A stretch of DNA of 40,666 nt. Source: a virus. A program made the position numbers and the translations under genes. Where the stretch lies: IMG/VR virus record IMGVR_UViG_3300020472_000061, positions 1-40,666 of that record; one strand, given 5' to 3'. Position 1 is the stretch's first letter; every line of letters starts with the position of its first letter. Under the pieces are notes generated by a model. It worked only from the letters and a program-made list of their open reading frames with translations. It made no database searches and had not been told where the DNA came from. Positions 1,824 to 23,889 of the stretch are shown piece after piece.

Positions 1824-2927
1824 TTACGCTTGAGGAGGCATTCCTGAAACAGGCTCGCCGCCAAGAGGCGGGGCTTCCGGGGCTGGGCCACCCATCATAG
1901 GAGGCGCAGCTTGAGGAGGCCCTGCTGGGACGGGCATTCCGCCCTGCCCAAATAAAGAAGCTGCACCCATAGGCGCAGGCCCCTTAATTATTGATAAAAG
2001 CTCTGTCATACCCATCTGCGCACGTTGAACAGCGCCCATGGTGGCAACGAGCTTACTAGAAGTGTTTTCTAGGTCAGTAACAAGGCCGGTAACTGGATTT
2101 CCCGGAGCGATCATTCCCCCAAAGGCAAGCTTTGTACCGCTATCGAAATCTGCCAGGTCTCCAACCTTATCCTTGATAACATCGACAAGTCCCTTAGAAG
2201 GTGTTCCTGCCATGATGGCGCTGGCGATTACAGCCGGGGGGTTGCCTGAGTTAGACGCCTCTTTGCAAAGGCTCTCAAGGCTTGCAAGCTTGACCGTGAA
2301 CTCATCCCCAAGACAAACAAGATCAGACTCCAGGCGGTCTTTTTCCCGGCGGAGATCTAAGAACTCTCGGGACTTCTCGGATATAGAGACTTCCGCCGAA
2401 GCGCTTTTCTCTAACCGACCCTTGTACATCTCCATGAACTGCTTTGTCTGCTCTGGCGTGTAGTCAGGATAAGCGGCTTTGACAGCCTCTTCCAGAGACA
2501 TTCCGCGAGCCATAAGGGTCTTTACCTTGCCCACGTTAGCCGTCTTTGTGAAGATGTCTTCAACAGAAGCCGACTCCTGACCAGGAACGTACTTGACCTT
2601 AGCCGGCTCCACGAATGAAGCAACTTTAGTTTTGTCTGGGGAGTTCTTTTGGGCCACTTGAGGGGCGGAGGCCATCTCGAAAGTGACATTTTTATCGTAG
2701 CCCAGCTTAAAAAGCTGGGAGAACGTCTCATTGTTGGCGAACTCTACAACACGCTTAATCTGCTCGTAGTTCAAGGAGGCCTCTTTAGAGAGGTCCGCAA
2801 GCGCATCGTTCAGCGGTGTTTTGTTCTCAACAAAGTTTGAAGCAGCCTTCTTTCCGATATAACGGAGCTTCTCCGCAGAAACCTCATCGGGCTCCTTGGA
2901 GGATAAAAAATCTTCGAATGCTGTCAT
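1824..2927 (-). CDS. Virion-module protein, 367 aa, K-x-A repeats and Pro/Met-rich tail
   Basis: The start is ATG at 2927 with AAGGAG five bases upstream, just after terL. The N-terminal 90 residues are helical and resemble a domain I have seen next to terminase and portal genes of other phages (LSKEASLNYEQIKRVVEF followed by an F/L-rich stretch), but I cannot name it. A probable coiled coil spans about residues 180-220 (SREFLDLRREKDRLESDL). The last 60 residues are low-complexity Pro, Gly, Met and Ala. The tetrapeptide K-x-A-[SAGN] occurs seven times by hand count (for example SKEAS, TKVAS, EKSAS, VKLAS, CKEAS), far above chance. Roles such as scaffold, internal core or head-tail protein are possible, and nothing in the sequence decides between them. 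Confidence 0.82.
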   Translation of the reverse strand: MTAFEDFLSSKEPDEVSAEKLRYIGKKAASNFVENKTPLNDALADLSKEASLNYEQIKRVVEFANNETFSQLFKLGYDKNVTFEMASAPQVAQKNSPDKTKVASFVEPAKVKYVPGQESASVEDIFTKTANVGKVKTLMARGMSLEEAVKAAYPDYTPEQTKQFMEMYKGRLEKSASAEVSISEKSREFLDLRREKDRLESDLVCLGDEFTVKLASLESLCKEASNSGNPPAVIASAIMAGTPSKGLVDVIKDKVGDLADFDSGTKLAFGGMIAPGNPVTGLVTDLENTSSKLVATMGAVQRAQMGMTELLSIIKGPAPMGAASLFGQGGMPVPAGPPQAAPPMMGGPAPEAPPLGGEPVSGMPPQA

Positions 2928-2949
2928 TTTAGCTCCTTAATAACTGTTA

Positions 2950-4584
2950 TCAACCTTTGTCATCCTTACCACCTAGTGGTGCAATGATATCAGGTCTTGG
3001 GTGTCTTATCATAGACACTAGAAAGCAATATGTCATGGCGTGGATCGTGTCATCCGTTGCTCCAGGCGTTTTAGTGACAACCGTTGTCCGCCTAGCCTCA
3101 TTGTATTCAGTAAAAACACTTAACAAATCCTCCGCAAAAGGGTGCTCAAAGTCTTCCCAAGCGGGGAGCTTAATTTCGTTTTTGCGATTTAGAGCGTTTA
3201 TCAAAGCCATAAGCGCTTCCGTCCTATTAACCATAAAACGGTGAAGCGCATTATCAAAGTATATCCTTCGAGTATTTACATACTGGTATCTAGCAAGCCG
3301 CTTGATGCCAAACGTTCTAATGAGCCTGTCATTGCGGTCAAAACCGCCGCCATAGTCAGCGCCTATTAATTTTATCTTATATTTATTTACCAGCTGCTCA
3401 ATGGCTGCGAGCGTGTTTTCTGGTTCAGCTTCCTCGCCTTCGAATCTCTTAAAGTACACGTATTGGAACTTATCCTTTACGTACCCGCCGATGGCCACAA
3501 CCGTGTAAGAGTTCTCGCCTGTCCCCCAGTCGATCCCCATGTACAAGTTATTCTTGGCTAGCCCCGCTGACCCGGCGAAGCTATTCCCTCCAGAAGATAG
3601 CTCCCTGAGAAGCTCCCTTGTTATGGGCTTCTGTCCAGAATCGTACCCAAGCCCAAGAACCTCGTTGTAAAACTGCGCTCTATTGTAGCGCTTTTTCTTG
3701 TCCCGTATTTCGTTCCAGTTAACCCACGGGGTGATCACCTGGGGGACGCGGTAACCCTCAAACGGGATAGCTATCGGAGGGTTTTTTAACCACTCCGGGG
3801 AGCGCATCGAAGCCCACTGGCATCTCGGATTTCGTGGGTCTATTGGCTTGCCGCACTTCTCACAAATAAGGCCAGTGTCCCCGATGTTTCTCTCGGAGAT
3901 AATGTTCCACTTGTTACAGGCCTCGCAAGGTATAACCCACTCGTTCTGGGTGGAGAACCTGCTCCAGTAGTAGCTGATCGTGTTGTCGAGACTCTTCGGC
4001 GTGCCGGAATATCGCAATATCTTGTATTGGGAGTGGGACAAGGCCTCCTCGATAACGGGGATGACCTCAGTTAGAATGTCCTGGATCTCATCCAGAAGAA
4101 GCATGTCTGCGGAGATACCACGAACACGATCAGCATGAAGGAATGCGTACCTAAGCGTAATATCGGACCCAGTTATAAACTTCTTATAAAGAACATTGTT
4201 CTTAGTGTTCTCTCCCCTGGTGAACGCCTGTACCTGCGGAGAGTACTCGACCGGTGTGGAGATTCTGTCCCTTGAGAATGTCTCTGTTTGCTGCTGAGTA
4301 GGGGACACAAAAAGGCTTCTGAAGTGCCTTTGGAGCAATGCGTAAGTTAGCGCGATATTACCCAGCGTCGTGCTCTTCTCAACCTGTCGACCACACTGCA
4401 GGAGAAGTCTTTTCGCCGGAGTATCGTAAATGGGGAGCAGATACTCCCTACCTGTAAAGTCGAACTTGTCTAAGTTCCCCTTGTTGGGCATCTTAAAGAA
4501 AGAGCCCACAAACTCTGAGGGGAACATATTGAACCCATCTGACGTGGCATCGAACTCTTCTACAGGCTTTTGAATCTTAAACAT
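2950..4584 (-). CDS. terL: Terminase large subunit (TerL), DNA-packaging ATPase/nuclease
   Basis: TerL pumps phage DNA into the procapsid through the portal and cuts concatemers. The 544-aa protein has the two-domain architecture. The ATPase domain has Walker A CGRQVEKSTT at residues 64-73 and Walker B MLLLDEIQDI with D165-E166. A zinc-ribbon-like insertion has C220, C223, C241 and C244. The RNase H-like nuclease domain has GIDWGTG (D352), IGADYGG (D410) and a C-terminal TDDTIHA acidic motif near residue 520. Length is normal for the family. The usual Gly before the Walker A Lys is Glu (E69), a variant seen in some phage terminases. The start overlaps the start of a plus-strand ORF, and no strong ribosome-binding site precedes it. 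A separate TerS is not evident; the 260-aa gene at 8863 is a weak candidate. Confidence 0.95.
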   Translation of the reverse strand: MFKIQKPVEEFDATSDGFNMFPSEFVGSFFKMPNKGNLDKFDFTGREYLLPIYDTPAKRLLLQCGRQVEKSTTLGNIALTYALLQRHFRSLFVSPTQQQTETFSRDRISTPVEYSPQVQAFTRGENTKNNVLYKKFITGSDITLRYAFLHADRVRGISADMLLLDEIQDILTEVIPVIEEALSHSQYKILRYSGTPKSLDNTISYYWSRFSTQNEWVIPCEACNKWNIISERNIGDTGLICEKCGKPIDPRNPRCQWASMRSPEWLKNPPIAIPFEGYRVPQVITPWVNWNEIRDKKKRYNRAQFYNEVLGLGYDSGQKPITRELLRELSSGGNSFAGSAGLAKNNLYMGIDWGTGENSYTVVAIGGYVKDKFQYVYFKRFEGEEAEPENTLAAIEQLVNKYKIKLIGADYGGGFDRNDRLIRTFGIKRLARYQYVNTRRIYFDNALHRFMVNRTEALMALINALNRKNEIKLPAWEDFEHPFAEDLLSVFTEYNEARRTTVVTKTPGATDDTIHAMTYCFLVSMIRHPRPDIIAPLGGKDDKG

Positions 4585-4795
4585 GAAAAACTACAAACGT
4601 ATTGTCGGGCAAATGTCCAGGGCCATGGGAAGTCTTCTCGTTGGATACGAGGTTATCGAATCAGCATGCATCATCTATATTAAGCCTCCGCTACACAAGG
4701 ACTCCATAGTTAGCATAAAAGCCTTAATACGTCATCACCAACCTAAAGCAAAGATACGGGTGTCTCCCAAAAAGGGTCGCATAGTTATTCGTTAG
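4583..4795 (+). CDS. Possible small antisense-strand gene, 70 aa
   Basis: This plus-strand ORF starts at an ATG overlapping the terL start codon on the opposite strand. It ends just inside the 3' end of the minus-strand Cys-rich gene, so it exactly fills the only 200-base gap in the left part of the virion operon. All three minus frames in the gap are broken by stops. The product is small and basic with alternating hydrophobic residues (SLLVGYEVIESACIIYIKPP) and a basic C-terminus (RVSPKKGRIVIR). It has no obvious ribosome-binding site and no recognised domain. The same layout, a plus-strand insert in the minus-strand operon, is seen at 19942-20282, where the genes are better supported. The gap could instead be untranslated. 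Confidence 0.4.
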   Translation: MKNYKRIVGQMSRAMGSLLVGYEVIESACIIYIKPPLHKDSIVSIKALIRHHQPKAKIRVSPKKGRIVIR

Positions 4796-5009
4796 GCTCT
4801 AGCGAAATGTAGGAATCGCATAGGAAGTCTTCTCGCACAGGGGACCTGTGCGATGTGCACTCTCCGTCACCCTTAAACCCTCTGCCAGCCGCGTAGATAA
4901 AGTTAGAGCAGCTTAGGCAGTTCTCCTGAGTTTTTGACACCCTCAGGCCTGGGGGACTCGGTTGATTTAGAAGGCCGTCCAAAATTGAAAAGTCGCGAGA
5001 AGAGTCCAA
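4785..5009 (-). CDS. Small Cys/His metal-binding-like protein, 74 aa
   Basis: The product has a compact C-x2-C motif (CLSCSNF), then C-x2-H (CTSHRS), then a final Cys before an aromatic (FLCDSYISLE). This arrangement is typical of small phage zinc- or Fe-S-binding proteins of unknown role. The start is a TTG at 5009 with GGGAG seven bases upstream. It lies inside the end of the helicase gene, giving a 107-base overlap in a different frame. A GTG near 4955 would shorten the overlap and keep all cysteines. An 8-bp perfect hairpin (4834-4852) lies within the Cys/His-coding part. The function is unknown; the conserved-looking metal-site spacing is the main reason to call it real. Confidence 0.65.
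   Translation of the reverse strand: MDSSRDFSILDGLLNQPSPPGLRVSKTQENCLSCSNFIYAAGRGFKGDGECTSHRSPVREDFLCDSYISLEPNE
4834..4852. repeat. Perfect 8-bp inverted repeat with 3-nt loop
   Basis: CGCACAGG, a GGA loop and CCTGTGCG form a perfect stem within the Cys-rich gene. There is no following T-run on either strand, so it is not a standard terminator. It may be an RNA stem near the end of the helicase-coding transcript, or chance. Confidence 0.35.
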
Positions 5010-6684: not shown

Positions 6685-6685
6685 T

Positions 6686-8859: not shown

Positions 8860-8862
8860 TGG

Positions 8863-9645: not shown

Positions 9646-9647
9646 TA

Positions 9648-11621
9648 CTACATTGATACATTAGATCTAATTTGCAGCTTCTTCAATCCCTGAATAGCAC
9701 GCTCAACACCAGAAAGTGAAGAAGATACCGCTGACTCCGGAACGTCGGACAAGCCAAGTCGAATACCGACAAGCAGTTCGGACAGTTTAAATGACGCCTG
9801 CTCCAAGTCGGGAATCATGTCAATATACCCCTGGACGTTTTCTGGGGTGACAAAGTTCAGGGACAGCACCGAGTCAACTGTGTCTGCCCCGGTTAGAACA
9901 GAGGCTTCCTTAACAAGGTCTACTTTAACTAGGCTAGCAACTTTAACCTCTTCAGAGCTAGGGGCATGCCCAGACGGAGCAGGCTCAATATTTCTCAAAG
10001 AAACAAAACTAACCGCTGCCCCCTTGTCAGCCTCAGCCAGCTTTTCAGTTGCTCCAGGAAAGGTGTCCCCCAGAAGACCTAACGTCATTAACGCTGCGGT
10101 CTTACTTAAGTTCTCTTTTTCATTCATGTGCCCGACTGGCGCTCCATCAAAAGAGTACCTAGACCCATCAGACCGGAGCGTAACCTTTCTGATAAGGTCG
10201 TGTCTTGCTGCTACCTTGTTCATGTGTACGGTATCGCTTTCATAGCCGTGCCCAAAAGATAACGGAACAAACACACTGTCAGCAGGAATCAAGAAATTGT
10301 TATCTTCCCACCTAACGGGCTTGGCGACATTAGCGAGTTTTACAGAGCCTCGACCAGTCAAAGGATGCTCGTATAAGTAGGATGTTTCGCCGTTGTCCGA
10401 AACAGCCGCACGGATATTAACCGGCTCGGAGGCATATCCAGCAGACTTAAATAAGAAAAGACCTTCACCGGAAGGGGAAGAGCCCTCAAGAGAGTCTAAG
10501 TTGATCTCTCCGCACCTAATCCCTGCGACCTTTTCCTGAAAGGCTGCGCCCGAGGGTCCGACGACCACACACATATCCATCTTTCTACCCGCCAGAGATC
10601 TGACATCGGAGAGCACGACAGCCCTTTGCGCACTGCCTGTTTTCGATATAACGGAGTAAACCCCCGTATCTTCGGCCGTGGTCAGGTCGGCGGCGGCAGC
10701 TACTGGCATAAGCTGCGAGTTTTTATCAGAGACCATTAGAGAGGATCCTAGATCAAAAACATCCTGGCGTACCTCTAGCGGAAGCGCAGCAGCATGGGAG
10801 TTGTCTAACTCAAAAGATCTCCCAGGGGTTCCGTTGAAAGAGGCAACCTTCAAGCTAAAGCCCCCCTCAGACTTGGTGACGACAGCCACGTCAAACTCGC
10901 CCGCAACTGAAGCCTCCTTTTTCGAACCATCGATAGCGTTAGACAAGTTAATAAGCGAGTTAGAGAAGTGCTCGTTCAAGCTTGCCGCATCAATAAGACG
11001 CTGGTCTGAGGCAACCTTGCTTAAGAAAGCATCGACAGAGTCAGAAGTTATGACCCCGGAAAGCTTTTCAATAACAGACCCGACCTTGCCCATTTCATAT
11101 CGACCCCCACCCAATCCGCCAGCAGGAACATCTGGCTGAAAGTTCGGGGACAGCGAGGCCGAAGCGGGAACATTTCCGCCCTTAGGACCAACAGAATAAG
11201 GACTAGCCTCAAACAGAGCGGAAGCGACCCTTGACTCGTTTAGAGGCATAAAGCGCCCATCGGCGTTTATAAATACATCGAAAGAATAAGCCTTCTTGTT
11301 TTCGACAATAATGGGGATCCTAATGGAGTTCTTGTCAGGCTCTTGCTGATCCGCCGGGCGGATAACCTCGTCCATTCTTTTTTGGCCCACCTCAGGAGGA
11401 ACGTTATTCGAGGGTTTAACAATAAAAACCCCATACATATAGCCAAGCCTGTGGTCCTGCCCATCAATAGAAATGCTTACATCATACTTTCCCAAGTAAG
11501 AGTGCTGCTTGTACAGATGAGCAATAAGTTCACTAGCGTACGTACTTGGGTTCTCCCCAAGCAAGAACTTACCTGCGGTTTTTTCAAAGCTTGGGCTCTT
11601 TAATTCTCTAATGAGCTTCAT
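9648..11621 (-). CDS. Virion-module protein, 657 aa, densely repeated K-x-A-[SAGN]
   Basis: The ATG at 11621 has GAGG eight bases upstream. The N-terminal domain (about residues 1-130) is mixed alpha/beta (YDVSISIDGQDHRLGYMYG; IIVENKKAYSFDVFINADG). A Gly/Pro linker follows near residue 165, and then a long region with repeated short beta-like units. Hand counting finds twelve K-x-A-[SAGN] tetrapeptides (KTAG, KVAS, KEAS, KVAG, KSAG, KLAN, KVAA and others) where about one is expected. The first is at residues 14-17 (FEKTAGKF). No enzyme motif or transmembrane segment is seen. Location between tail-hub-like genes and the HTH-like gene suggests a structural or internal virion protein. The motif could be a processing or binding site. 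Confidence 0.82.
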   Translation of the reverse strand: MKLIRELKSPSFEKTAGKFLLGENPSTYASELIAHLYKQHSYLGKYDVSISIDGQDHRLGYMYGVFIVKPSNNVPPEVGQKRMDEVIRPADQQEPDKNSIRIPIIVENKKAYSFDVFINADGRFMPLNESRVASALFEASPYSVGPKGGNVPASASLSPNFQPDVPAGGLGGGRYEMGKVGSVIEKLSGVITSDSVDAFLSKVASDQRLIDAASLNEHFSNSLINLSNAIDGSKKEASVAGEFDVAVVTKSEGGFSLKVASFNGTPGRSFELDNSHAAALPLEVRQDVFDLGSSLMVSDKNSQLMPVAAAADLTTAEDTGVYSVISKTGSAQRAVVLSDVRSLAGRKMDMCVVVGPSGAAFQEKVAGIRCGEINLDSLEGSSPSGEGLFLFKSAGYASEPVNIRAAVSDNGETSYLYEHPLTGRGSVKLANVAKPVRWEDNNFLIPADSVFVPLSFGHGYESDTVHMNKVAARHDLIRKVTLRSDGSRYSFDGAPVGHMNEKENLSKTAALMTLGLLGDTFPGATEKLAEADKGAAVSFVSLRNIEPAPSGHAPSSEEVKVASLVKVDLVKEASVLTGADTVDSVLSLNFVTPENVQGYIDMIPDLEQASFKLSELLVGIRLGLSDVPESAVSSSLSGVERAIQGLKKLQIRSNVSM

Positions 11622-11631
11622 AATAAATCCT

Positions 11632-12087: not shown

Positions 12088-13595
12088 TATTCCACCAAAA
12101 CCTTTGATGATTTAGCATCATCTATCGGGTCAATTGCCGTGCAAGGAGCGACGGCCCCTGGAGGAGTTGGCCCCCAGGCTGTCTTTAGAACGAGGTCGTT
12201 GTTTATAAAGTTCTGCAAATTATTAAGGCACTCTTTTAGTTCTTCGAATTTGACGCCATGTGAGCTTGGGTCTACCCCAAGCTCTATCCCATCAGCGGCC
12301 GTGGCATTTATCATAAATTTCTTTCCATCAAATACGAAGTCATTAATAACTTTTACAACCATCTGCTCCAAATAAACCTTGAAGTCGCCAGACTTAGTAA
12401 GCTCTAGTAGAGCTTGTTTACTAGAAGATCCGGAGAGTTGCTCACTTAGCTCGTCCCCGTATTCTATCTTAACGCCCTGAGCGACGTTTGCATAGACGGT
12501 CCTGTCAAGCTCTACATGTATATGCCCTTTTGAATGAAGGAAGTGGTCTCCGTCCTTATTAATCTGAAAAGCGTAGGTCACCTTTTCTTTGCTACCCGGC
12601 CCACCCTCAGCATCGTCATGAGGCCATATGGTAAAACTTAAAACACCACGAGAAGAACGGGTGTCCCAAACCGGGTCGTCCGCCTCTTCGTAACCATCCT
12701 TTAAACCAGGGAACTGTCTAAGCCCAACATCGCTAGACGTGGCCTCGTTAATTGTGCGGATGTTCCCGAAGATATGCTCATTATCTATCTCTGTATCAAG
12801 GGCCTCCTCTGTAAGACGCCCCATCCGAACCTCAACGGTGTAATTTCGGTGCCCAGAAGACCCGGCCGGACTAGATGCTTCTGTTTTACCCGCAACAACC
12901 TCCTGCACCATATCCTTAATACTGTACCGGACAATCACAGGTGTCTCTGTAGAGTTCGGGCCGCTAGCCGCTTCTACAACACCCCCTAAGGTGGTTTTTT
13001 CAGAAAGGTCACTCTCAGCAACAAGCTGCGCATGCCCCCACTCGATCTCCCCCACAGGGGAAAAGGCTTGGTACTTTTGGAAGTAATCCCTGACAACATT
13101 TTCTATGGGTAGGTAAAACCTTTGTGCTAGCGGCGTTGCTCCAATTTGAACCATTCCGCCTCTCCTAAGGCACACCTTGTTTCCATCTTGCGTGCCGAGG
13201 AAAACATCGCCAGGCTCTAAGAACTCACGCTCTCCCCGGAAATCTGGTCCCTTGTCAGCCGTAGTGGACTCTTGGACCTTGCCGTCAACTTTTTCGAATT
13301 GAGGGGTGTTTCTTGGGTCGGTGACGAAACCCAAAACAAATTGAGTCTTGTCAGCGCAGACACACACGTAACACATACTGCCCTCTTCGGGCATTATGGA
13401 TACACCGCCAGGATGACTTCTGTTTTGGTACGGCGTGGCGAATGGGATATCACTATAGGTCCTTTGCGTAAAAATTCCGATAGCGTCCAGTGTGAACTCT
13501 CTTGGATTTACGTAAACAACTCTAGCCAGCGCCACGCTCGCTGGGCCTGAGGCTCCTGTCGCGTCGGTAGAATTTCCTGAACTATCCTTAGCCAT
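12087..13595 (-). CDS. Tail hub/spike-like protein with gp5/gpV-type OB fold, 502 aa
   Basis: Near the N-terminus the sequence PGGVSIMPEEGSMCYVCVC, then VLGFVTD, has the beta-barrel pattern of the OB domain in T4 gp5/lambda gpV-like hub proteins. It is followed by FLEPGDVFLGTQDGNKVCLR and GGMVQIGA, typical of the segment leading into a spike. The C-terminal 130 residues are beta-rich (YAFQINKDGDHFLHSKGHIH; VHVELD-like repeats), as expected for a trimeric spike stem. No lysozyme insertion is seen. It would form or plug the tail tip and touch the host envelope. Start ATG overlaps the RNAP stop codon (TAATG) with GGGGG upstream, so RNAP and hub are made from one message. The tail type cannot be decided from this gene. 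Confidence 0.7.
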   Translation of the reverse strand: MAKDSSGNSTDATGASGPASVALARVVYVNPREFTLDAIGIFTQRTYSDIPFATPYQNRSHPGGVSIMPEEGSMCYVCVCADKTQFVLGFVTDPRNTPQFEKVDGKVQESTTADKGPDFRGEREFLEPGDVFLGTQDGNKVCLRRGGMVQIGATPLAQRFYLPIENVVRDYFQKYQAFSPVGEIEWGHAQLVAESDLSEKTTLGGVVEAASGPNSTETPVIVRYSIKDMVQEVVAGKTEASSPAGSSGHRNYTVEVRMGRLTEEALDTEIDNEHIFGNIRTINEATSSDVGLRQFPGLKDGYEEADDPVWDTRSSRGVLSFTIWPHDDAEGGPGSKEKVTYAFQINKDGDHFLHSKGHIHVELDRTVYANVAQGVKIEYGDELSEQLSGSSSKQALLELTKSGDFKVYLEQMVVKVINDFVFDGKKFMINATAADGIELGVDPSSHGVKFEELKECLNNLQNFINNDLVLKTAWGPTPPGAVAPCTAIDPIDDAKSSKVLVE

Positions 13596-16500
13596 TAATA
13601 CGTACCCCCTTCTCGGCCCTTACCAAACTCGGCGGAGTACGTAATCCCTGGGCTTGGGTGTAGCCCGTGTATGTCCGACTCCCACCCCTCATTGGCGGCG
13701 CGGATAAGTGTCTCCTTAAGCTTCCTGTATTGCATTCGCGCTAACCAGTCCGTGGTCTGGTCTAGCGGAAGCGTTTCCACGCCACGGAGCACGGGCTCAA
13801 CAAGAACCCCACTGCCTCCGGTATTGTTCCTGTTCAGGTGAGCAACGTGTGAGCTAGAGACAAGGTCATTTTTAACGAAGTCCGAATCTCCGGGGTCTAT
13901 AACCCTCGACAAGTTCGTAAGTGACTTCGTGACCACCTCAACGTTTCTACGCTTGATTCCCTCGCTCTTGTACGCACCGTGTATCTCGTCAGACAGATAC
14001 CGCTGTACAGTGTCTACATTGGTCAGCCCTAAAAGCTCCCTAGGGTTTATGGGTCCGCCCGTTAATCTTTGTCCTTTACGAACCTTAGCCCCTTTTTTCA
14101 CTTTTACTGAGCGGTCCCCAGGAACATACACCTGCTCCTCCCCAACCAAGACATCGTGCCCACCAATATCGCTTTTCTTAACAGCTTTGATAGTTCCCGT
14201 CACAGGACTCAAAACAGCGGACCCCGCAACAATTTCGGGCATTTTCAAAAGCTGTATGACTCGGTCAATTCCACCTACCAGGTTTCCCGACGCCCCTGCA
14301 ACACCTCCGGTGTGGAAGGATTTCATGGCCAGCTGGGTGCCGCGTTCTCCCAAAGAAGTACCAGCTATAAGGCCAATATTGGTCCCTTTTTCTATAAGGT
14401 TTCCTCCATTATATAGACCATAGCACTTGGAACAGAGGCCTTTTGAGGATTGGCACTTTAGTGGGGAGCGTACAAGAAGCTTAGATACTTTAGAGGACTT
14501 TAGGCTGGATAATAGGCTCGGAGTAACCTCAGTGTTTTTAGGAACAACCATGCCCCCTATAGACAATTTCTTAGCCGTGAATCGGTCTACGATATCAGCG
14601 TCGGTAGTGTCTAAAGCAATTCCGCGATCTGTTTTGCAGTCATCTTCGGTAATTAAGTAAGTTATTGCTGTGTTAGCTATTTGCTTATTCAGGGCTCCTG
14701 GCTTTTGAACAGATTGTACCTTTTCTATAAGACCTTTTCTTGCGCCCGAAGACGCTACCCAGTAACCAGACGTGTCTAGACCCTCAGAGTAAGACCGGGT
14801 TACGGGGACAGGAATAACCCTTCCTTTGGCGTTCTCCAATAACATCGGAGCGATAACCATTTGCTGTAGCTGCGACCATGAGGGCTTCACGCCCGCGTTA
14901 TTCATGGCTGCGAGCTTATTACCCCTTTTATTCAGGAGTGCCTTGGCTTCCTTGTTTATGTCTTCGGTCGCCTGCATGTATATTTTTATTATTTTTGCTT
15001 CGGCAGCTTCCGCAGAAAGCAAGTTCATCTCAACCTGCTTTTTTGTCGTTGACTCTTGCTTGCGCGCCTTAACCAAATGCTTTTCCCGTAACTTGCCGAG
15101 AGTCTTAAAGTCATCCAGGCTAAAAGAAAAGCCAATAGCGTATGAGTGGCCAAATCCAAGATCTTTAAGCTTGTCCACAGTTGTGGAGAATGCTCCAGGA
15201 GCCTTTGTTGCGACATCCCTTAAAACCCCCTGGAGCACTTTACTGCTCATGACCGCCTTAGGGTCTGTGAGAATCTTGTCGGTTCTAGCCGCCTTAGGCA
15301 GGGCCGCATGGAAAGTCGCCCTACCCAGAGTCGTCTTTTTCCCATCGATGGTCACAACGTCGGTCAAAGCAAGACTTCCGTCCTTCGCGGCAACACGAGC
15401 CTCAGAAAGGTCCTTGTAGGACTTATTTGTTTTCTTCCCCATCTGAGTGAGGAGGAACAACCCCATCTGTCCTTCAAGGGTGGGCTGGTACATAACCTTG
15501 CCGGTAGCAGGGTTAAACAAGTTCTTTGACGGCAACATTTTGTACGCCTCGTCAACCGCCTCTTGCGATACGGGGACGAATACCGCCATCGTATCTCCGT
15601 CAAAGTCCGCATTAAACCCTCCCGTCACAAGCGGGTGAATCTGGACGGAGGACTCGCCATGTAGTTTGGCCTTGAAGGCCATTATTCCGAATTTATGGAG
15701 AACAGGATCGCGCTTAAAAAGAACAGGCCGCTTAGACACAGCGATATCCAACGCCTTGTTAGCAAGGGAGGAATTTTTTTCAACCTCCTCCCGGGCAGAC
15801 AGCGGAGTATACCCCATGGCCACAAGCTCCTTAACAACGAAAGGACGAAAGATTTTCATGGCCCCTTTTCTAGGAAGCCCAAGCTCGTCCAGGTGAAGCT
15901 CCATGTTGGGGACAATGACGGAGCGCATTGCTAGGTCCTGCCTACGGTCCAGTAGCCTCTGGTGGAAAAAGCTCTGCTTCGGGGAGGTCCTTCCTGACAG
16001 GATTGCCAATATGCCTGGTGGCTTTGCTTGCCCGTCTATGGTTAAAGCCCCTTGATTTTGGCCGGGAGCTGTCCCCATTAAGGCGTCAATAGCGTCGTAC
16101 AAATCACCTCTTAGCGCTGCGACCTCTTCGTCCGGAAGAACACCGGAGGCCTCTTTGAGCTTGTTGTTCAATATGGCTATGTCTCTATATAAGAGGTTAA
16201 GCCCATCAACATTTAAGTCCCCACCCTCCATTGCGGTGATTGGCCTAAACAGCGGGGGGAGGATAGGCACGTTGCTAATCAGGTACGCCTCCTCGGCTGA
16301 CATTGAGTTTTTATCCAACATACGCAGGTATTTTATTTTCTTATTCGCCGCATCTAGCTTGGACTTTCTCGCAGTTTTTATATCCTCTTCTGCAGCGGCT
16401 AACTGCTGAGCCACATTGATCTTGGAAATCGCTTGGGCTATGGCCGCAGGGCCTTTTAACGAGGCCTCCTCGTCATAACCATTTTCGGATAAGCCTGCCT

Positions 16501-19500
16501 CACCGCTAATAATCTTGTCGTACTGGGCACCAGTGATGCCCAATAGGGATCGTACAGATTTCTCAAACACCGGATTTGGTAGCTTCTCGGGGAGAGTTAG
16601 ATGTGACCAGCTCTTGCCGCCAGGACCGCCCGTAATTTCTTCATCGAACAGGCCGTCTTTTTCAGGCTTCAAGTCTTTGCCTCTAATTACGCGACTTCCG
16701 TTTTTAATCTCACCATTGGACATAGACAGTATTTGCTTGTCGGTAAGAGGCTGAACTACAAGCCCATTCCCCTCCTTCTCTACGTTCACGCCTATTGCAG
16801 CAAGATACGCAAGAAATTTTTCATACGCAAAAGAGGGCTTTGGTGTAGGCAGCATCTGACCTGTCTGCACAGCTGTCCAAACCTCGTCTTGGGACTTATC
16901 CCCTTTGTACGTAAGGGCGTCTCGGATATTAGCTGTCGCGCCATGCGCGAGCATCGCGTAGAGGCCAAGCTCCCCAAATCTTTGTCCTCCGGACCCTCCA
17001 CCGCTCTTAGGTATCATGTTCGCGCTGTAATCGTACCCGTACCCGTGTGCCCGCGCCGATAGCTTCTTGTCCACCTGGTGCGTCATCTTGAGTATGTATT
17101 GCTGGCCAACCAAAACCTTGCCTAAGCTCTTCCCGCTAACAGGATCAAAAAGCTCTTCCGTCTCGTCAACGCCAGCATCTTTTAATGCACTCTTAACTAC
17201 TTCTTGGTAACCAAGCTCACGCTCATGCTCTTTTACAAGAATCCGTTTGGGCCCGCTTTTTGTTTTTATAGTTCGGTAATGTTCCTTAACCTTAACAACC
17301 TTCTTCTCGTCATCTGATTGAAAGTTTTCAACCGCGTACGGCTCTCCGGTTTCCGCAGCGGCTTTAGCTAAGGATGTCTCCAGAACCTGCCCGAGGTTTA
17401 TTCGCCCAGGAACGCCGGAAGGGTTGAATATAATCTCTAGGGGAACGCCTTCGCTGTTCTTAGGCATCTCTTCGTTAGGAACGACTGCGGTTATAACCCC
17501 TTTGTTCCCATGCCGACCGGTAAGCTTATCTCCGATGTCCGCGGGCTCCTCCGTCTTAACAAAGACCGTGACCTCTCTACCATTGCGCACAACGTCAGTC
17601 ACCACGCCCGAGTAAGGCTTTTCCCACGACACAGACCTGTCTTTATACGGTCTGGCCAGCGAGCGGTGGATACCTTTCAAAAGAATTTGCTCTTTGGAAG
17701 GTTCGGACTTCTGTAAAGCTGCTATTAGGACGTCGCCGGGGGAAACTTTCTGCCCCTTCTTTATTACGCCGTCCTCATCCATTTTAGCGGCGTTCTCTTC
17801 AGAGACCGCGCCAGGATAGTTTGCTCTAAACTTTTTTAGGCCTAGCGCCATGTTTTTTTCTACGTATACGCGTGGCTTGTGCAAGTGCTCGCTTGTAAGC
17901 CGCTCCGCTGCAGCCTCAGAGATCACAATCCCGTCCTCAAACACAAGCCCCTTATAGGGCACGTATCCAACACGCAAATTGGTGCCTAACGACAAAGTCC
18001 CATTTCTTGTAAAATTTGTGTCCGCAATAGTCTGACCGGCCTTTACAGCAGCCCCCTTTGTCACAATCGGAGTGCTCTGCATAAACGATTTCTTCTCATT
18101 AAGAGGGAAGCTTTCGTACAGAGCGATCTCGTGCTTTTTGCCTGCGCTGTCGGACACAACGATCTTAGACGGTCCAACGCTAGACACGATACCGCTCACA
18201 GGGCTTGTGTGTGCCGAAAGCCCGCCCATAACCTTTTCCCACGTAGAGAACCTTTTTTCCGGGTTCCCAGACACAACTTGTACGAGAGGCTCTTCCCGGT
18301 ACTTCAGAGAAATAGCCTGCTCCATGTGCCGGGTTGCCATCCCTGCGCGATTTGCTTGATCCGAGGGAAGAAAAGGGACAAGGTTCGCAGTCATAGAAAA
18401 AAGCTGCTTGGGAGACTGTAGAACGTAATCGACTTTGTTGGCGGCTATGTCTCTCGGATCTCCCCCGTCCTGATCCACAACTGTTACGCTCTTTGTCTTG
18501 GGGTGTGGTCGCCCGTCTGGGCCAAAAATATACTGGTCCGGGAACGCTACAGCCTTTCCGGACAAGTCCGCTGGGCTCCGGTTCTCGTACTTCCCTGAGG
18601 CCGTGGAAAATACGCGGATTGTTGGATTGTTCCCAATCTTAGACACACCCAGCGATAGGTGCCCACTAATACCAGACCTTTTCCCTTCAGGGGTGTGAAT
18701 AGGGTCCAAAAAACCCAAGTGACTTGAATCAATAAGCTTAGCGTCGTCAGATATAGCAAGGTCGCTACTAATTCCGCCCGTACCCAGAATAGTAGTTCTG
18801 AGGAATCCACCTACCATATCTATTGGGTTTGTTTGGTTGGGTTGTTGAGATAGTGAGGTTGAGGTGAAATAAGCTTTCACAGGGACATTAAAAATGTCCG
18901 GGGTCACAATGCTCTTTACAGAGTCTTTTCTGTCCAGATTATTCTTTATCTTAAACTCAATTCTTTTCGAGGAATTAAGAATTCTTTCTGGAAGATGGTC
19001 CTCTATAGACCATAACTCTTTGAACCTTAAAGAGTCTCGGTTGTCTGGCTCGCGATCTCCTTTATTTATAGCTAATAAACGATCAGACGCAGCAAGGAGG
19101 GTCCCCCCCTCAACCTTGCTAAAGGGTGCGCCCAGCGTAATTTCGGTCGTGTCTTTTCGCAGCTCAGTTTGTTTTAGCTTATCAAGTATAACGGGAGTAG
19201 CCTCTACGTCTGTCTTCCCCTCAAATCTGCGATCAAGCGATTTAGCAAGCTTGACCAGCTCCCCTCGCTTTTTGTCAGAGACACTTTTGGCGTAAAGACT
19301 CTCGCCCCACACCGATCTAATCTCTTCGTCAGAAACCCCCATTGCCTGGAGAACCGGGAGAAGCTGGATGTTAGTGGTTCCGTAGTTAAGCATAAAACGC
19401 TTCTTCTCTGGGGAAAAAGCCATTCTAAACCCTCGACCTTTAGAGAGGTTAAATTGCGCCTCCAGGCCGCCGTTCGCTTTAACACGGGAATACACTCCAG

Positions 19501-19855
19501 ACTTAAGTCTCCACTGATTGTCTGACTGATATTCAGTACCATCGACAATATAGCTAAATCTTCGGGTTATCTTGGGGAGCCCGATAAGCTTCAGCTTTTT
19601 GACCGAGTCCACAACTGTTCCTGTCTCTTTATCTACTAGGGAGAAATCGGCGTATATGGGAACTGACCAGGTTCTTCCGCGCAGCCTCGCCTTCTTCTGA
19701 CTGGCGATATCGTCCACGTCCACGCCTTTTCCGGCGTATACCTTAGTGGCAACAAGTTTTTTAGTTCTCCCCTCCATCGGGAAAAACTTTTCTACCTGCT
19801 CTATGGTCCTTTCTTCGAGAGCTTTCATCGCCCTCTCGGGATCAAGAATTGACAT
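13595..19855 (-). CDS. rpoBC: Single-chain fused RNA polymerase beta-beta' (2,086 aa)
   Basis: DNA-dependent RNA polymerase with both large bacterial subunits in one frame. Beta (about residues 1-1028) shows a rif-region SLSQQPNQTNP (334-344), FEDGIVISE, GRHGNKG (780-786), SGVPGRINLGQVLE and GGQRFGELGLYAML. Beta' follows almost without a linker (from about 1030): LPPLFRP clamp region, NADFDGD catalytic Asp triad (1415-1421), bridge helix SSGARKGL, zinc site 2 (C1740, C1801, C1808, C1811), and trigger loop SLGERGTQLAMKSFHTGG with H1848. The beta' N-terminal zinc domain is missing (after DGLF, 1067-1070). The beta flap is cut to a short hairpin (about 750-775). There is no SI3-type trigger-loop insertion. 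Total length is roughly 660 aa below E. coli beta plus beta'. Start ATG has GGAGG five bases upstream. No alpha, omega or sigma gene is visible in the window. Confidence 0.97.
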   Translation of the reverse strand: MSILDPERAMKALEERTIEQVEKFFPMEGRTKKLVATKVYAGKGVDVDDIASQKKARLRGRTWSVPIYADFSLVDKETGTVVDSVKKLKLIGLPKITRRFSYIVDGTEYQSDNQWRLKSGVYSRVKANGGLEAQFNLSKGRGFRMAFSPEKKRFMLNYGTTNIQLLPVLQAMGVSDEEIRSVWGESLYAKSVSDKKRGELVKLAKSLDRRFEGKTDVEATPVILDKLKQTELRKDTTEITLGAPFSKVEGGTLLAASDRLLAINKGDREPDNRDSLRFKELWSIEDHLPERILNSSKRIEFKIKNNLDRKDSVKSIVTPDIFNVPVKAYFTSTSLSQQPNQTNPIDMVGGFLRTTILGTGGISSDLAISDDAKLIDSSHLGFLDPIHTPEGKRSGISGHLSLGVSKIGNNPTIRVFSTASGKYENRSPADLSGKAVAFPDQYIFGPDGRPHPKTKSVTVVDQDGGDPRDIAANKVDYVLQSPKQLFSMTANLVPFLPSDQANRAGMATRHMEQAISLKYREEPLVQVVSGNPEKRFSTWEKVMGGLSAHTSPVSGIVSSVGPSKIVVSDSAGKKHEIALYESFPLNEKKSFMQSTPIVTKGAAVKAGQTIADTNFTRNGTLSLGTNLRVGYVPYKGLVFEDGIVISEAAAERLTSEHLHKPRVYVEKNMALGLKKFRANYPGAVSEENAAKMDEDGVIKKGQKVSPGDVLIAALQKSEPSKEQILLKGIHRSLARPYKDRSVSWEKPYSGVVTDVVRNGREVTVFVKTEEPADIGDKLTGRHGNKGVITAVVPNEEMPKNSEGVPLEIIFNPSGVPGRINLGQVLETSLAKAAAETGEPYAVENFQSDDEKKVVKVKEHYRTIKTKSGPKRILVKEHERELGYQEVVKSALKDAGVDETEELFDPVSGKSLGKVLVGQQYILKMTHQVDKKLSARAHGYGYDYSANMIPKSGGGSGGQRFGELGLYAMLAHGATANIRDALTYKGDKSQDEVWTAVQTGQMLPTPKPSFAYEKFLAYLAAIGVNVEKEGNGLVVQPLTDKQILSMSNGEIKNGSRVIRGKDLKPEKDGLFDEEITGGPGGKSWSHLTLPEKLPNPVFEKSVRSLLGITGAQYDKIISGEAGLSENGYDEEASLKGPAAIAQAISKINVAQQLAAAEEDIKTARKSKLDAANKKIKYLRMLDKNSMSAEEAYLISNVPILPPLFRPITAMEGGDLNVDGLNLLYRDIAILNNKLKEASGVLPDEEVAALRGDLYDAIDALMGTAPGQNQGALTIDGQAKPPGILAILSGRTSPKQSFFHQRLLDRRQDLAMRSVIVPNMELHLDELGLPRKGAMKIFRPFVVKELVAMGYTPLSAREEVEKNSSLANKALDIAVSKRPVLFKRDPVLHKFGIMAFKAKLHGESSVQIHPLVTGGFNADFDGDTMAVFVPVSQEAVDEAYKMLPSKNLFNPATGKVMYQPTLEGQMGLFLLTQMGKKTNKSYKDLSEARVAAKDGSLALTDVVTIDGKKTTLGRATFHAALPKAARTDKILTDPKAVMSSKVLQGVLRDVATKAPGAFSTTVDKLKDLGFGHSYAIGFSFSLDDFKTLGKLREKHLVKARKQESTTKKQVEMNLLSAEAAEAKIIKIYMQATEDINKEAKALLNKRGNKLAAMNNAGVKPSWSQLQQMVIAPMLLENAKGRVIPVPVTRSYSEGLDTSGYWVASSGARKGLIEKVQSVQKPGALNKQIANTAITYLITEDDCKTDRGIALDTTDADIVDRFTAKKLSIGGMVVPKNTEVTPSLLSSLKSSKVSKLLVRSPLKCQSSKGLCSKCYGLYNGGNLIEKGTNIGLIAGTSLGERGTQLAMKSFHTGGVAGASGNLVGGIDRVIQLLKMPEIVAGSAVLSPVTGTIKAVKKSDIGGHDVLVGEEQVYVPGDRSVKVKKGAKVRKGQRLTGGPINPRELLGLTNVDTVQRYLSDEIHGAYKSEGIKRRNVEVVTKSLTNLSRVIDPGDSDFVKNDLVSSSHVAHLNRNNTGGSGVLVEPVLRGVETLPLDQTTDWLARMQYRKLKETLIRAANEGWESDIHGLHPSPGITYSAEFGKGREGGTY

Positions 19856-19863
19856 TTCAACCT

Positions 19864-19877: not shown

Positions 19878-19885
19878 CTAATTAA

Positions 19886-19932: not shown

Positions 19933-19941
19933 GAGTATATC

Positions 19942-20064: not shown

Positions 20065-20282
20065 TAGCAAAACCTAAAAAAATTGTTTGCCACGCCAAAG
20101 GCGGAGGATGCTCAGAGTATACAAACTGTGGGAACTGCGAGTTCTTTTTGAACAAGTACGATTCTGCTGCCTGGGTTTGCACTAACTGTATAAGAGATTC
20201 CGATAACATTGAGATGTTCTACCATAGCGGCAATTGTGACCGCTGTGGTTTTCGGTCTGCCGTGTTAGTGCCCATAGTCTAG
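20061..20282 (+). CDS. Small protein with eight cysteines (double zinc ribbon), 73 aa
   Basis: GTG start at 20061 overlaps the stop of the 40-aa gene. Cysteines at residues 10, 17, 23, 26, 40, 43, 59 and 62 include three C-x2-C knuckles (CGNC, CTNC, CDRC), enough to bind two zinc ions. The N-terminus is basic (IAKPKKIVCHAK). Phage proteins of this type often bind nucleic acid or host proteins, but the role here is unknown. The stop codon overlaps the portal stop on the opposite strand, so the two genes are convergent. Being the only well-supported plus-strand insert in the virion operon and next to the RNAP gene, it is a candidate early regulator. That is inference. Confidence 0.72.
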   Translation: MIAKPKKIVCHAKGGGCSEYTNCGNCEFFLNKYDSAAWVCTNCIRDSDNIEMFYHSGNCDRCGFRSAVLVPIV

Positions 20283-22252
20283 CCCTGCGCTATGCCTGTG
20301 CCCGCCTGTGGCGGGCCGGCCATTGGTTGCGGGGGTTGCATAGACCCAGCGAGTGTGTTGTTTACAACAGTATATAGGTCCGGGTGGCTGGTGCGTAACT
20401 GCGCCAGCGCCCGGTACCTGTCTACCTCATTCATTGCTTTTAGCTGCATGCTGATCTGCCGCGCCTGCGCGAATAGATCAACCATATTACCGCCCTGGTC
20501 CGCAGAAACCGGACTAGTTTCTATGCCCCCTGGCTGGGTCTCCTGTTGTGGCTGCTGCGCCATCTCCTGCTGATCAACGTCTCCCTCGGCGGGTTGCCCA
20601 GGAGGTTGCGGACCTTGTTCGCCTTGTGGACCTTGTTCGCCTTGCTGGCCTTGAGGTGGTCCCTGGGATGGCGGAGGAGGCTGCTGGGCTTGTTGCGGCT
20701 GAGGCATCTGTTGTTGCGCCTCCGCCTGCATCATTTGTGCCTGAACTTGGTAGCGGGTCTGGACCAGCATGGCTTCGCCCTGAGCTTCCGCTGCTTGCAG
20801 TTGTTGCTCTCTCTGAGTCTGCGCAAACTTCTTGGTCTCTTTCTCTATGAGAGAGGACTCTGTCTCAAAGCTAAAGTTCCGTGACTGTAAGAACGATCTA
20901 CGACTTATCATACCCGCATTAGCAAGGTTTAAGTCAAACGAGGCCCTTTGAATATCGTCGGCCATCTTGAAGGGTTTAAACTTAACAGGAATGCTCGGTA
21001 TATCCAAAAACGCGCATACCCGATCCCGGACAAACTCAACAAGTCTTAGCATGTCCTGACGGTTTCCCAGAAACTCGTTTTCTAGAGCACGCAAGTTAAC
21101 AGAGGCCCCAGAATACTGAGCCTCTCCGTAGAAGAACCCGGTAGGTACGCCCATCCCGGCAATTATCTGGTCGTTATATATACGAATTTCTTGGTGAAGG
21201 AGGAGCGATCTACCCTGCCCACCGATCATTTGGTAACCAACAGGGACGGGCATGACGGGAATATGGTTGTTATCTTGCCGCCATTTTTTTATCTGCGTAG
21301 TTACTTCGCCCTGCCAGTCCTTTAGGTTTATGTGCGCGTAAGGGTTGCTGCCGTCTGTTGTCACCTGCGGAAACATAACCCGCATTGGCACAATGTGCTC
21401 AAGGGCTACGGCTTCTTGCGACTTTCGTAATACCTGAAGGAAGAATATATCCTTTAATACAGGTAATATCAGGGGCGCTCCCCACCCGCTATCTGACGGG
21501 TCTCTAGAGATAGAGGCGCGTTTTGAATGAAAAATTTTATCCTCATCCAGCATGATAGATTTTTTCTTCGCCAGCGCATCTATGAACGCTTGCGGAATAG
21601 TCTCAATTACGCTCGGCTTGCCAAGAGTAATATCGTTCCTTATGTGCCTGGGCATCGAGTAGTAGTACTCAGTATTGCCGGTTATCTCGTTGTGCTTTAT
21701 TGTTATATTCTTCGGATTCCACCGAATAAGCTTTATTTTTTTGTGTGCTTTTACTGGCTCGTCGCGAACTTCAGCAGCTCCGTAATGCCCACAGCCTGTA
21801 CAATTAAGAAAGAACTTAAACCCCTTCCATTTGTACCCTGACTTACTAGCCTCATAGTCAGACTTACAGCTTTTACAGATAAGAATCTTCTTAAACGGAA
21901 AGGAGACAGACACAAAAGAATTGCCATACGTGTACCTGTCTAGATTAATTTCGATCAGAAAAGTCCTTAAAAGGAACTGTTTTTCAAACAGGTCCTTATA
22001 AAGGCTAACGACTCCGTCGTTGTCGTCCTCGTAGACGATATCAGTAATAGGGTACGTGGCTAACTTTTGCGTAACCGAGTTTATAAGTGGATTTGTTAGC
22101 TGGTAGTACAGGCACCAGTCGAAGGTGTCTTTAATTGTTTTCGGCAGGTAGTTCTGCGCTATATCAAAAAAGGGGCTCGGGTAAAAAGTCTCTGGGCGGC
22201 CAACGCTCTTGGCTCTCCTAGACTTGGCTGATGAAAGTACTGAGTTTGCCAT
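20279..22252 (-). CDS. Portal protein with zinc-ribbon insertion and Gln/Pro tail, 657 aa
   Basis: The portal forms the dodecameric channel for DNA entry and tail attachment. Support comes from size, position, and motifs typical of large-phage portals: the N-terminal YYQLTNPLINSVTQKLATYP region and the central GMGVPTGFFYGEAQYSGASV followed by LENEFLGNRQDMLRLVEFV, a clip/stem-like helix. A ribbon with C126, C129, C151 and C154 (C-x2-C-x21-C-x2-C) interrupts the wing region. The C-terminal 150 residues are Gln/Pro/Gly-rich, including a short collagen-like G-x-y run encoded by an 18-bp tandem repeat. Start ATG has AGGAA eight bases upstream. The stop overlaps that of the plus-strand zinc gene. 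Confidence 0.85.
   Translation of the reverse strand: MANSVLSSAKSRRAKSVGRPETFYPSPFFDIAQNYLPKTIKDTFDWCLYYQLTNPLINSVTQKLATYPITDIVYEDDNDGVVSLYKDLFEKQFLLRTFLIEINLDRYTYGNSFVSVSFPFKKILICKSCKSDYEASKSGYKWKGFKFFLNCTGCGHYGAAEVRDEPVKAHKKIKLIRWNPKNITIKHNEITGNTEYYYSMPRHIRNDITLGKPSVIETIPQAFIDALAKKKSIMLDEDKIFHSKRASISRDPSDSGWGAPLILPVLKDIFFLQVLRKSQEAVALEHIVPMRVMFPQVTTDGSNPYAHINLKDWQGEVTTQIKKWRQDNNHIPVMPVPVGYQMIGGQGRSLLLHQEIRIYNDQIIAGMGVPTGFFYGEAQYSGASVNLRALENEFLGNRQDMLRLVEFVRDRVCAFLDIPSIPVKFKPFKMADDIQRASFDLNLANAGMISRRSFLQSRNFSFETESSLIEKETKKFAQTQREQQLQAAEAQGEAMLVQTRYQVQAQMMQAEAQQQMPQPQQAQQPPPPSQGPPQGQQGEQGPQGEQGPQPPGQPAEGDVDQQEMAQQPQQETQPGGIETSPVSADQGGNMVDLFAQARQISMQLKAMNEVDRYRALAQLRTSHPDLYTVVNNTLAGSMQPPQPMAGPPQAGTGIAQG
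20611..20646. repeat. 18-bp tandem repeat, two copies, in portal C-terminus
   Basis: GACCTTGTTCGCCTTGTG is followed directly by a copy differing only in its last two bases. On the minus strand each unit encodes six residues of the G-E-Q-G-P-Q type. Slippage at such a repeat would change tail length in steps of six residues without a frameshift. Confidence 0.75.
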
Positions 22253-22262
22253 TGGTTTGTTC

Positions 22263-22904
22263 CTACGGGAATATTACCTTTAATTGAGATAGTAGCGCCC
22301 TAGACTGGCCTTCTACATAATCCAGGACAGACTGAGACTTCATGATCTGAACATCCGATAAGTCTCTAGTATTACCCTTTAATGCTTTTTTGATCAACTC
22401 TTGCCTGCTGGTACTAACCCGATCTGCAATATACTTGTTGCAGGGCTCTAAAGGGCCTGGGCCAAACGCCATCCCATCATCTAGTAAGGCCGCGCCGACA
22501 TACCTATAGACCTCTTTCGACACAGCTTTTTTGTCTTTGACTTGCCCCATAATATCTAAGGCAAGGGCCATGACATGCGGAGAGACTCGCTGGACCAAGT
22601 CAAACCTTGGAGATACTCCGGCCAACGCCATGCAAACCTTCTCGAACACATTCCAGCTTTCATAGGGCTGGTCTGATACGTGGCATGTCCTGACGGCCTG
22701 GAGCTTATTGCGGCTGTTCTCGGAAATTGTCGTATTCCAAGTCAGTTTAATCTCCGCCCAGCAAGTTTCCGGCTCCCAAGACAAATACTCGGGACCAAAC
22801 TCCTTGACCATCAACAGGTCCAGAAGGAGTGGGTGCGATAGCCTGTTTGTGAAGGCTTTTTTGGCCGCACGCGGCCCAGCGTAATTAGAGTCGTTGTTAA
22901 CCAT
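22263..22904 (-). CDS. Portal-adjacent virion-module protein, 213 aa
   Basis: The ATG at 22904 overlaps the stop of the upstream gene; a TTG three bases further upstream is an alternative. The product is soluble and helical with a Trp-rich segment (YLSWEPETCWAEIKLTWNTT) and conserved-looking YESWNVFEKVCMALAG and SPHVMALALDIMGQV. I believe similar proteins sit next to portals in other phages, but I cannot name the family. The location directly upstream of the portal gene suggests a head-completion, connector or scaffold-associated role (inference). Confidence 0.8.
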   Translation of the reverse strand: MVNNDSNYAGPRAAKKAFTNRLSHPLLLDLLMVKEFGPEYLSWEPETCWAEIKLTWNTTISENSRNKLQAVRTCHVSDQPYESWNVFEKVCMALAGVSPRFDLVQRVSPHVMALALDIMGQVKDKKAVSKEVYRYVGAALLDDGMAFGPGPLEPCNKYIADRVSTSRQELIKKALKGNTRDLSDVQIMKSQSVLDYVEGQSRALLSQLKVIFP

Positions 22905-23889
22905 CAATCATCCGAGCAATGGCCTTCTTGTGCGTTATAGGAAGGCTATCCAGAACACTTACAGGATCTTCCTTAAATTGTCCCACAAAATCATCACCAA
23001 AAACATCGGAAAGTGCATCACCGCGAGATTCTGCAAAATTAGTAACATCTTCATCAGAATAAGTAACGCCGTCAATTTCAAGGGATCCCGCAGTGCTAGC
23101 TGTCTTTTCTACAGAGGTTCCGAAGACAGTTGCGTAAGGGTCTAAAATATTTTTTCCGTATAAATGGGTTATCCCATGACGAATATCGAAGTCTGACAGG
23201 TCCTCAACGAGATCTTCCGGAGATGCGGAAGCCACCTTCTCCTTGATCGCATCAAGCTCCATAGTTGCCTGCGCACTAAGCGAAGCTATTTTACGCAGAT
23301 CTAATCCGGTGTTAAAATCACTCCCCACCTCTTCTCTTGCATAATCAGTGAGTTCATCAGAGAGGTGCTCAAGGAGGCCTGCCTCTTTAACCTGCATCAT
23401 AAGCCGACGCTTACCTCTAGGGGACGCCGTATCAAAAGCGTCTTTGACAACCTCCGTCGGATCGCCCTGCGAAACTCCGAAGAGGCTCTCTAATGATCTG
23501 TCCGTCTCCATACCTGGGCCGCTGAACCCAAGCTCAATAGACGCGATTTTTTCGAGACTCTCTGTCGGGGTAAACCCGAACACCTTAAGGGCAGCGTTAA
23601 TTTTCTCTGCTGCCGTCTTCTGCAGGTCGGCCGGCAAAGCGCTTGCTACCTTAGAGAGATACATGGCAGAAGCCAGAGTATTACCCGCGTCAACAACAGG
23701 GTATCGGTACTCTCGCCCTCCCAGGGTGTCGACGACAAGAGCGTAGTCGGAATCGTTTTTAGAGGCGTTCTTCGACAAGTCTGCCGCCGTCTTGATGACC
23801 TCGGGAACTTCATTACCCTCGATAGACTCACGAAGAAAGGCTCCACTATCATCGTAGTGGTCAACAACTTTAGGGAGGTTTTTGATCAT
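22897..23889 (-). CDS. Virion-module protein, 330 aa, K-x-A-[SAGN] repeats, first gene of operon
   Basis: The ATG at 23889 has GGAG about seven bases upstream. A GTG at 23901 would extend the protein by four residues but overlaps that site. The product is acidic and helical. Eight K-x-A-[SAGN] motifs occur by hand count (IKTAAD, SKNAS, SKVAS, QKTAA, EKIAS, RKIAS, EKVAS, EKTAS), spread across the protein. There are no transmembrane segments or cysteine clusters. It is the first gene of the minus-strand operon, divergent from the early arm, and is followed by the portal-adjacent gene and portal. A scaffold, core or internal protein is plausible, but no homology is recognised. Confidence 0.82.
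   Translation of the reverse strand: MIKNLPKVVDHYDDSGAFLRESIEGNEVPEVIKTAADLSKNASKNDSDYALVVDTLGGREYRYPVVDAGNTLASAMYLSKVASALPADLQKTAAEKINAALKVFGFTPTESLEKIASIELGFSGPGMETDRSLESLFGVSQGDPTEVVKDAFDTASPRGKRRLMMQVKEAGLLEHLSDELTDYAREEVGSDFNTGLDLRKIASLSAQATMELDAIKEKVASASPEDLVEDLSDFDIRHGITHLYGKNILDPYATVFGTSVEKTASTAGSLEIDGVTYSDEDVTNFAESRGDALSDVFGDDFVGQFKEDPVSVLDSLPITHKKAIARMIDG

Follow-up and report, generated by a model that had tools for sequence, protein, structure and literature searches.

Why should one short tetrapeptide recur in several otherwise dissimilar proteins of a phage virion module? We address this question for a 40,666-base virus record (hereafter the window, i.e., the whole stretch analysed) that encodes a fused beta-beta' RNA polymerase (RNAP; 2086 aa, 13595-19855). 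The original prediction held that K-x-A-[SAGN] is concentrated in three virion-module proteins of 367, 657 and 330 residues, and proposed that it marks maturation-protease cleavage sites, a docking motif or a helical repeat. If the cleavage reading is true, one short motif lists the head, core and injected proteins of a large-phage lineage that is widespread, mostly uncultured and equipped with a cellular-type RNA polymerase, and whose virion proteins lack a database family match. It would also add a new specificity to the capsid-maturation proteases, provide a direct test of whether phages share the herpesvirus alanine-serine cut, and suggest leader peptides that might be used to load proteins into phage heads; isolated phages among the close relatives make the prediction testable.

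Window and sampling of relatives

Searching directly for homologues of the 657-aa protein and of the RNAP returned zero loci and only one locus, respectively, so relatives were gathered via the portal protein, which yields 79 related viral loci. Among annotated phages, those closest to the window are Salmonella phage Arash and Vibrio phages D69, D148 and D181, with portals ~31% identical to its own. A match to the 367-aa protein is found in 22 of the 22 records searched, including Arash gp220, which is annotated as structural. The RNA polymerase of Arash (gp206, gp216) and D69 (L003:19959-27010) is split into pieces of ~1525 aa and ~606 aa, with the split falling inside beta' and other genes in between, while that of the window is a single fusion; homing endonucleases are annotated at the split region in D148 and D181.

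The K-x-A motif is enriched in three virion-module proteins

Exact counts of K.A[SAGN] were compared with 5000 composition-preserving shuffles per protein, for which the lowest attainable p is 0.0002. All three proteins reach this floor, with 8 motifs observed vs 1.1 expected in the 367-aa protein, 12 vs 1.2 in the 657-aa protein and 9 vs 0.6 in the 330/334-aa protein, which bears out the predicted excess. The hand count of about 12 for the 657-aa protein agrees with this, while those for the 367-aa protein (7) and the 330-aa protein (8) were each one short. The RNAP (5 observed vs 4.2 expected), the portal (20279-22252; 1 vs 0.7) and TerL (2950-4584; 0 vs 0.5) are at chance level, again as anticipated, and K-x-A was rejected as a processing signal of the RNAP on these grounds. 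Even spacing of the motif, also part of the original prediction, is not recovered, as the gaps are not significantly regular in any of the three proteins (coefficient of variation, p = 0.06, 0.71 and 0.08). No known domain scores above the Pfam or PHROGs cut-offs in any of them. Shared ancestry, or a common helical repeat, was considered and rejected, since the three proteins have neither self-similarity nor significant mutual similarity. The features are as follows, with the sites listed beneath the protein that carries them.

1824..2927, minus strand: 367-aa protein predicted to be internal to the head or part of its core, several K-x-A sites; Arash gp220 is a homologue
2838..2852, minus: site K26/K27, IGKKAA, GKKAAS; column carries the motif in 16/23 homologues
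2775..2786, minus: site K48, LSKEAS; motif in 11/23 homologues
2616..2627, minus: site K101, KTKVAS; motif in 20/23 homologues
2535..2546, minus: site K128, FTKTAN; one border of a helical cassette
2397..2408, minus: site K174, LEKSAS; other border of the K128 helical cassette
2280..2291, minus: site K213, TVKLAS
2253..2264, minus: site K222, LCKEAS; motif in 19/23 homologues
9648..11621, minus strand: 657-aa predicted head/internal protein, multiple K-x-A sites
11571..11582, minus: site K14, FEKTAG, leader-like, close to the N-terminus; motif in 13/14 homologues
11007..11018, minus: site K202, LSKVAS
10908..10919, minus: site K235, SKKEAS
10839..10850, minus: site K258, SLKVAS
10521..10532, minus: site K364, QEKVAG
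10437..10448, minus: site K392, LFKSAG
10329..10340, minus: site K428, SVKLAN
10206..10217, minus: site K469, MNKVAA
10092..10103, minus: site K507, LSKTAA
10014..10025, minus: site K533, ADKGAA, weak (x is G)
9933..9944, minus: site K560, EVKVAS
9900..9911, minus: site K571, LVKEAS
22897..23901, minus strand: 330/334-aa predicted head/internal protein, multiple K-x-A sites; lies upstream of the portal gene; its syntenic counterpart in Arash is gp242, a protein annotated as structural
23782..23793, minus: site K37, VIKTAA
23761..23772, minus: site K44, LSKNAS
23641..23652, minus: site K84, LSKVAS
23608..23619, minus: site K95, LQKTAA; motif in 31/50 homologues
23539..23550, minus: site K118, LEKIAS; motif in 25/50 homologues
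23377..23388, minus: site K172, QVKEAG; motif in 22/54 homologues
23281..23292, minus: site K204, LRKIAS
23227..23238, minus: site K222, KEKVAS; motif in 20/56 homologues
23095..23106, minus: site K266, VEKTAS, predicted disordered loop (pLDDT <50 at model residues 261-266); motif in 37/57 homologues

The motif is constrained across divergent homologues

The three families together comprise 96 homologues with a median pairwise identity of 23-27%, and contain 571 motifs vs 72 expected: 146 vs 19.7 in the 367-aa family (23 homologues), 118 vs 12.8 in the 657-aa family (14 homologues) and 307 vs 39.7 in the 330/334-aa family (59 homologues). When all residue pairs in these families are scanned without bias, K.A comes out on top (939 observed vs 248 expected, z 43.8), followed by a next pair at z 17; K and A at helical spacing reach a z of only 7.2, and L.E, I.E, A.E and S.E are absent from the 25 most enriched pairs. 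Sites fit the consensus [LMIFQ]-[EV]-K-[TEQVL]-A-[SAG], in which P, G and D are avoided at the x position. Conservation in the window proteins is 0.54 and 0.58 for the motif K and A, compared with 0.33 and 0.31 for other K and A residues (p = 0.002 and 9e-5), while conservation of the x position is just 0.29 and that of the residue following A is likewise not above background. Of the tetrapeptide as originally defined, what stands is thus the K-x-A core, together with a hydrophobic residue at the second position ahead of K; S/A/G is preferred at the fourth position of the tetrapeptide, which is not conserved.

Most near relatives show the same enrichment in their homologues of the 334- and 657-aa proteins; it is not seen in the Arash and D69 counterparts of the 657-aa protein, which were assigned by gene order only. 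Across seven complete or near-complete genomes the motif excess falls in the same few proteins.

Structure prediction for the 330-aa protein gives a well-folded model (pLDDT 88.8) with about half of the K-x-A sites in predicted helix, and the sites do not lie significantly nearer to loops than expected by chance (p = 0.27); a Foldseek search of the PDB with this model reveals no meaningful match. Because this protein is predicted to be folded and its sites have no significant loop bias, some motifs may stay uncut or serve in docking.

Relatives encode a putative maturation protease beside the motif-rich genes

In relatives, the region past the gene at the window's low end has the order protease, scaffold-like and capsid genes (Arash gp222-gp226, D69 and relative G001), so that the prohead protease gene sought outside the window is present in relatives and adjoins these genes past the window's end. 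No homologue of the protease or of the capsid protein was found in the window itself, and it is from the gene order of relatives that we infer a protease gene in the window's genome, which would lie immediately beyond coordinate 1, the end of the record. The relatives' protein (491-561 aa) matches PHROG 18299 'head maturation protease' (E 5e-9 for G001, 2e-6 for Arash). Residues H103, H104 and S160 are invariant in 17 homologues, and the H-S spacing is 56-57, compared with 55 in T4 gp21 (between the catalytic H85 and S140).

Residues 47-219 of the protease model align with T4 gp21 in VIA-align with Z 10.4 (rmsd 2.7, 131 aligned residues; next row 6.7), and Foldseek returns a weak E-value of 0.049 at a probability of 0.96. 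The mean pLDDT of the model is 60.7, with ~70-90 over most of the domain. Given this mean confidence and the weak Foldseek E-value, the case for a gp21-like predicted fold is good but not absolute. Similarity between the single T4 gp21 sequence and the protease profile was not detected. Peptidase_S78 (PF04586) matches nothing in 22 genomes, in a search whose control worked; Peptidase_S77 (PF03420) gave no match, and its positive control gave none either.

Most protease homologues carry K-x-A at about residue 30, and many carry a second site directly after the domain (LEKVAN, LQKVAS, MAKVAS). In the modelled protease, both lie in segments of pLDDT <50 that flank the domain (residues 1-34 and 217-284).

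Phage G provides a more distant comparison: gp19 of Bacillus phage G is a homologue of the relatives' protease (~35% identical), with LVKTAA before the domain and LEKVAS after it, and the K-x-A excess in this phage is weaker, being modest in gp7 and gp11. This suggests that K-x-A specificity may extend to this very large phage. The phage G portal, gp14, has K-x-A near its N-terminus (MAKQAA). A homologous protease domain also forms the N-terminus of a 1286-aa hypothetical protein, gp86 of Mycobacterium phage ET08, just upstream of the capsid gene; gp86 of this Bxz1 type is probably a protease-scaffold fusion, and a K-x-A excess is not evident in the Bxz1-type protein.

Other putative substrates and N-terminal leaders

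The motif extends beyond the three proteins in which it was originally noted: in relatives it also marks the protease, scaffold-like proteins, and the N-termini of capsid and other proteins. Every one of the 13 capsid proteins found has a K-x-A at about residue 27, with flanking residues that differ between clades (KEKIAA, KEKVAE, LEKAAQ, QVKTAQ, LVKEAG), and the product of the scaffold-like gene between the protease and capsid genes contains 6 (Arash) or 10 (D69) sites. In Arash, annotated structural proteins contain 31 strict motifs vs 8.1 expected, and the remaining proteins 10 vs 9.8. Residues 1-45 of the proteins of seven genomes hold 83 strict motifs vs 22.8 expected, a 3.6-fold excess. 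A leader, MNxLEKxAAK, is common to 11 proteins with 7 dissimilar bodies, among them the 202-aa protein of the window, which is listed here with its neighbour.

1205..1813, minus strand: 202-aa protein starting MNYLEKKAAKED, removable-leader-like N-terminus shared among the 11 proteins; site at 1787-1798
563..1204, minus strand: 213-aa protein, N-terminal site K12 LEKLAA (1160-1171); Arash gp221, annotated as structural, is a homologue

The form MNALEKYAAKK is found on dissimilar small proteins near a contig end in two relatives (G002, L154, 20-8518; G001, L152, 19136-19540); these are candidate internal head proteins. K-x-A-S also occurs within the first residues of the beta subunit in Arash and D69. 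In the 367-aa protein, a short helical cassette, VGKVKTLMARGMSLEEAVKAAYPDYTP..., lies between two K-x-A sites (2397-2546; residues 121-185); an unrelated 193-aa protein of relative G003 (L163:6658-7239) also carries it N-terminally, and the D69 scaffold-like protein contains a weakly similar stretch (E 0.21).

Interpretation of the motif

We consider it highly probable that K-x-A is the recognition sequence of the capsid-maturation (prohead) protease of this lineage; the cleavage-site reading, one of those originally offered, is thus strongly favoured, with a gp21-like protease bearing its own sites beside these genes in relatives. During head assembly such a protease would cut scaffold and core proteins to short pieces, trim the major capsid protein and other virion proteins at their N-termini, and cut itself on either side of its folded domain. 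Cleavage would then take place at K-x-A and, by analogy, the cut would fall after the alanine, giving a putative site of hydrophobic(P5)-x-K(P3)-x-A(P1) followed by S/A/G at P1'. The three motif-rich proteins of the window would be core or internal head proteins, each cut several times. The best reading is that a system of known type has here a new specificity, different from that of the E-directed phage proteases checked; none of the papers searched describes a prohead protease specific for K-x-A. A broader proposal, which we regard as possible and hold only tentatively, is that an alanine-directed protease cutting K(P3)-x-A before S, perhaps including that of phage G, resembles herpesvirus assemblin more than the glutamate-directed phage enzymes, and that the lineage uses the shared removable leader MNxLEKxAAK, together with small helical cassettes bordered by K-x-A, to bring unrelated proteins into the capsid.

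The positive control bears directly on the alternatives. In T4, L/I-x-E is enriched in the known gp21 substrates gp68, gp21, gp22 and gp23, with no excess in tail proteins or terminase, and K-x-A gives a null result. Cleavage motifs therefore yield exactly the statistical pattern that might otherwise be assigned to a docking motif, one that binds a shell, scaffold or protease subunit and organises the head core while remaining uncut. Such a motif could account for many copies per protein, some in predicted helix of a well-folded protein, and for N-terminal leaders acting as targeting signals, but it leaves unexplained the sites beside the protease's own folded domain and the lone capsid-protein site that ends an N-terminal arm; we judge it improbable as the sole explanation. 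Docking and cleavage can coexist, as in the T4 capsid-targeting sequences (PMC9026906).

We give still less credence to K-x-A as a by-product of helical composition or internal repeats. The proteins are helix-rich, K and A are helix formers, and the D69 and Arash scaffold-like proteins do hold repeated short cassettes with K-x-A borders, some of them duplicated. Against this, the shuffles exclude simple composition, the i, i+2 spacing far outscores helical K...A (z 43.8 vs 7.2), T4 core proteins have no K-x-A excess, and non-structural Arash proteins are unenriched (10 vs 9.8). The helical repeat originally proposed is likewise disfavoured, with internal repeats undetected and K and A conserved but not their neighbours. 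That an enzyme other than the adjacent protease, such as one from the host or a further phage protease, cleaves K-x-A seems equally unlikely: the protease is tied to its substrates through gene order and self-sites, which leaves some room for another enzyme, but the adjacent protease has conserved self-sites flanking its domain, and the convention in tailed phages is that one prohead protease does such cutting.

Comparison with known systems

The lineage resembles the mReC Caudovirales (Weinheimer and Aylward 2020, PMC7481178), which are likewise tailed phages with a cellular-type beta/beta' RNAP, fused here in one 2086-aa protein; the likeness is in RNAP type. The words 'protease', 'prohead' and 'virion' are absent from the text of that paper.

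T4 is the closest parallel. The predicted fold of the protease domain is like that of gp21 (Z 10.4), the gene order protease, scaffold-like and capsid protein is the same, and in both systems the motif is enriched in scaffold and core proteins, protease and capsid protein. L/I-x-E and K-x-A alike place two fixed positions around one free residue, and the short N-terminal leaders ending at a site recall the capsid-targeting sequences of T4, which are likewise short leaders, cleaved off by gp21 (PMC9026906). The systems differ in that P3 is K and the putative P1 is A, rather than L/I and E, and in that the relatives' protease is ~560 aa, with a long C-terminal extension.

Prohead protease motifs reported elsewhere are L/I-x-E (T4), A-x-E (SPN3US) and S/A/G-x-E (phiKZ) (PMC9026906, PMC5694885). 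The phiKZ gp175 and SPN3US gp245 sites share the P3-x-P1 layout of K-x-A, SPN3US favours S after the cut, as is preferred here, and both phages have multiple sites per propeptide and self-cleavage, paralleled here by the self-site motifs (PMC5694885, PMC10052503). All reported phiKZ and SPN3US sites are cut after glutamate, whereas an E-directed motif does not stand out here.

Herpesvirus assemblin (UL26) is also among the structural matches to the protease model, with Z 5 to 6.7; the ranking does not set them apart from unrelated MCE-domain rows, and the fold kinship therefore rests mainly on gp21. The scissile bond of assemblin lies between A and S, which the preferred x-A-S resembles, and P3 in its sites is hydrophobic, in contrast to the K found here. 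The protease self-site immediately after the domain is, in turn, reminiscent of the herpesvirus release site (R-site) (PMC4498786).
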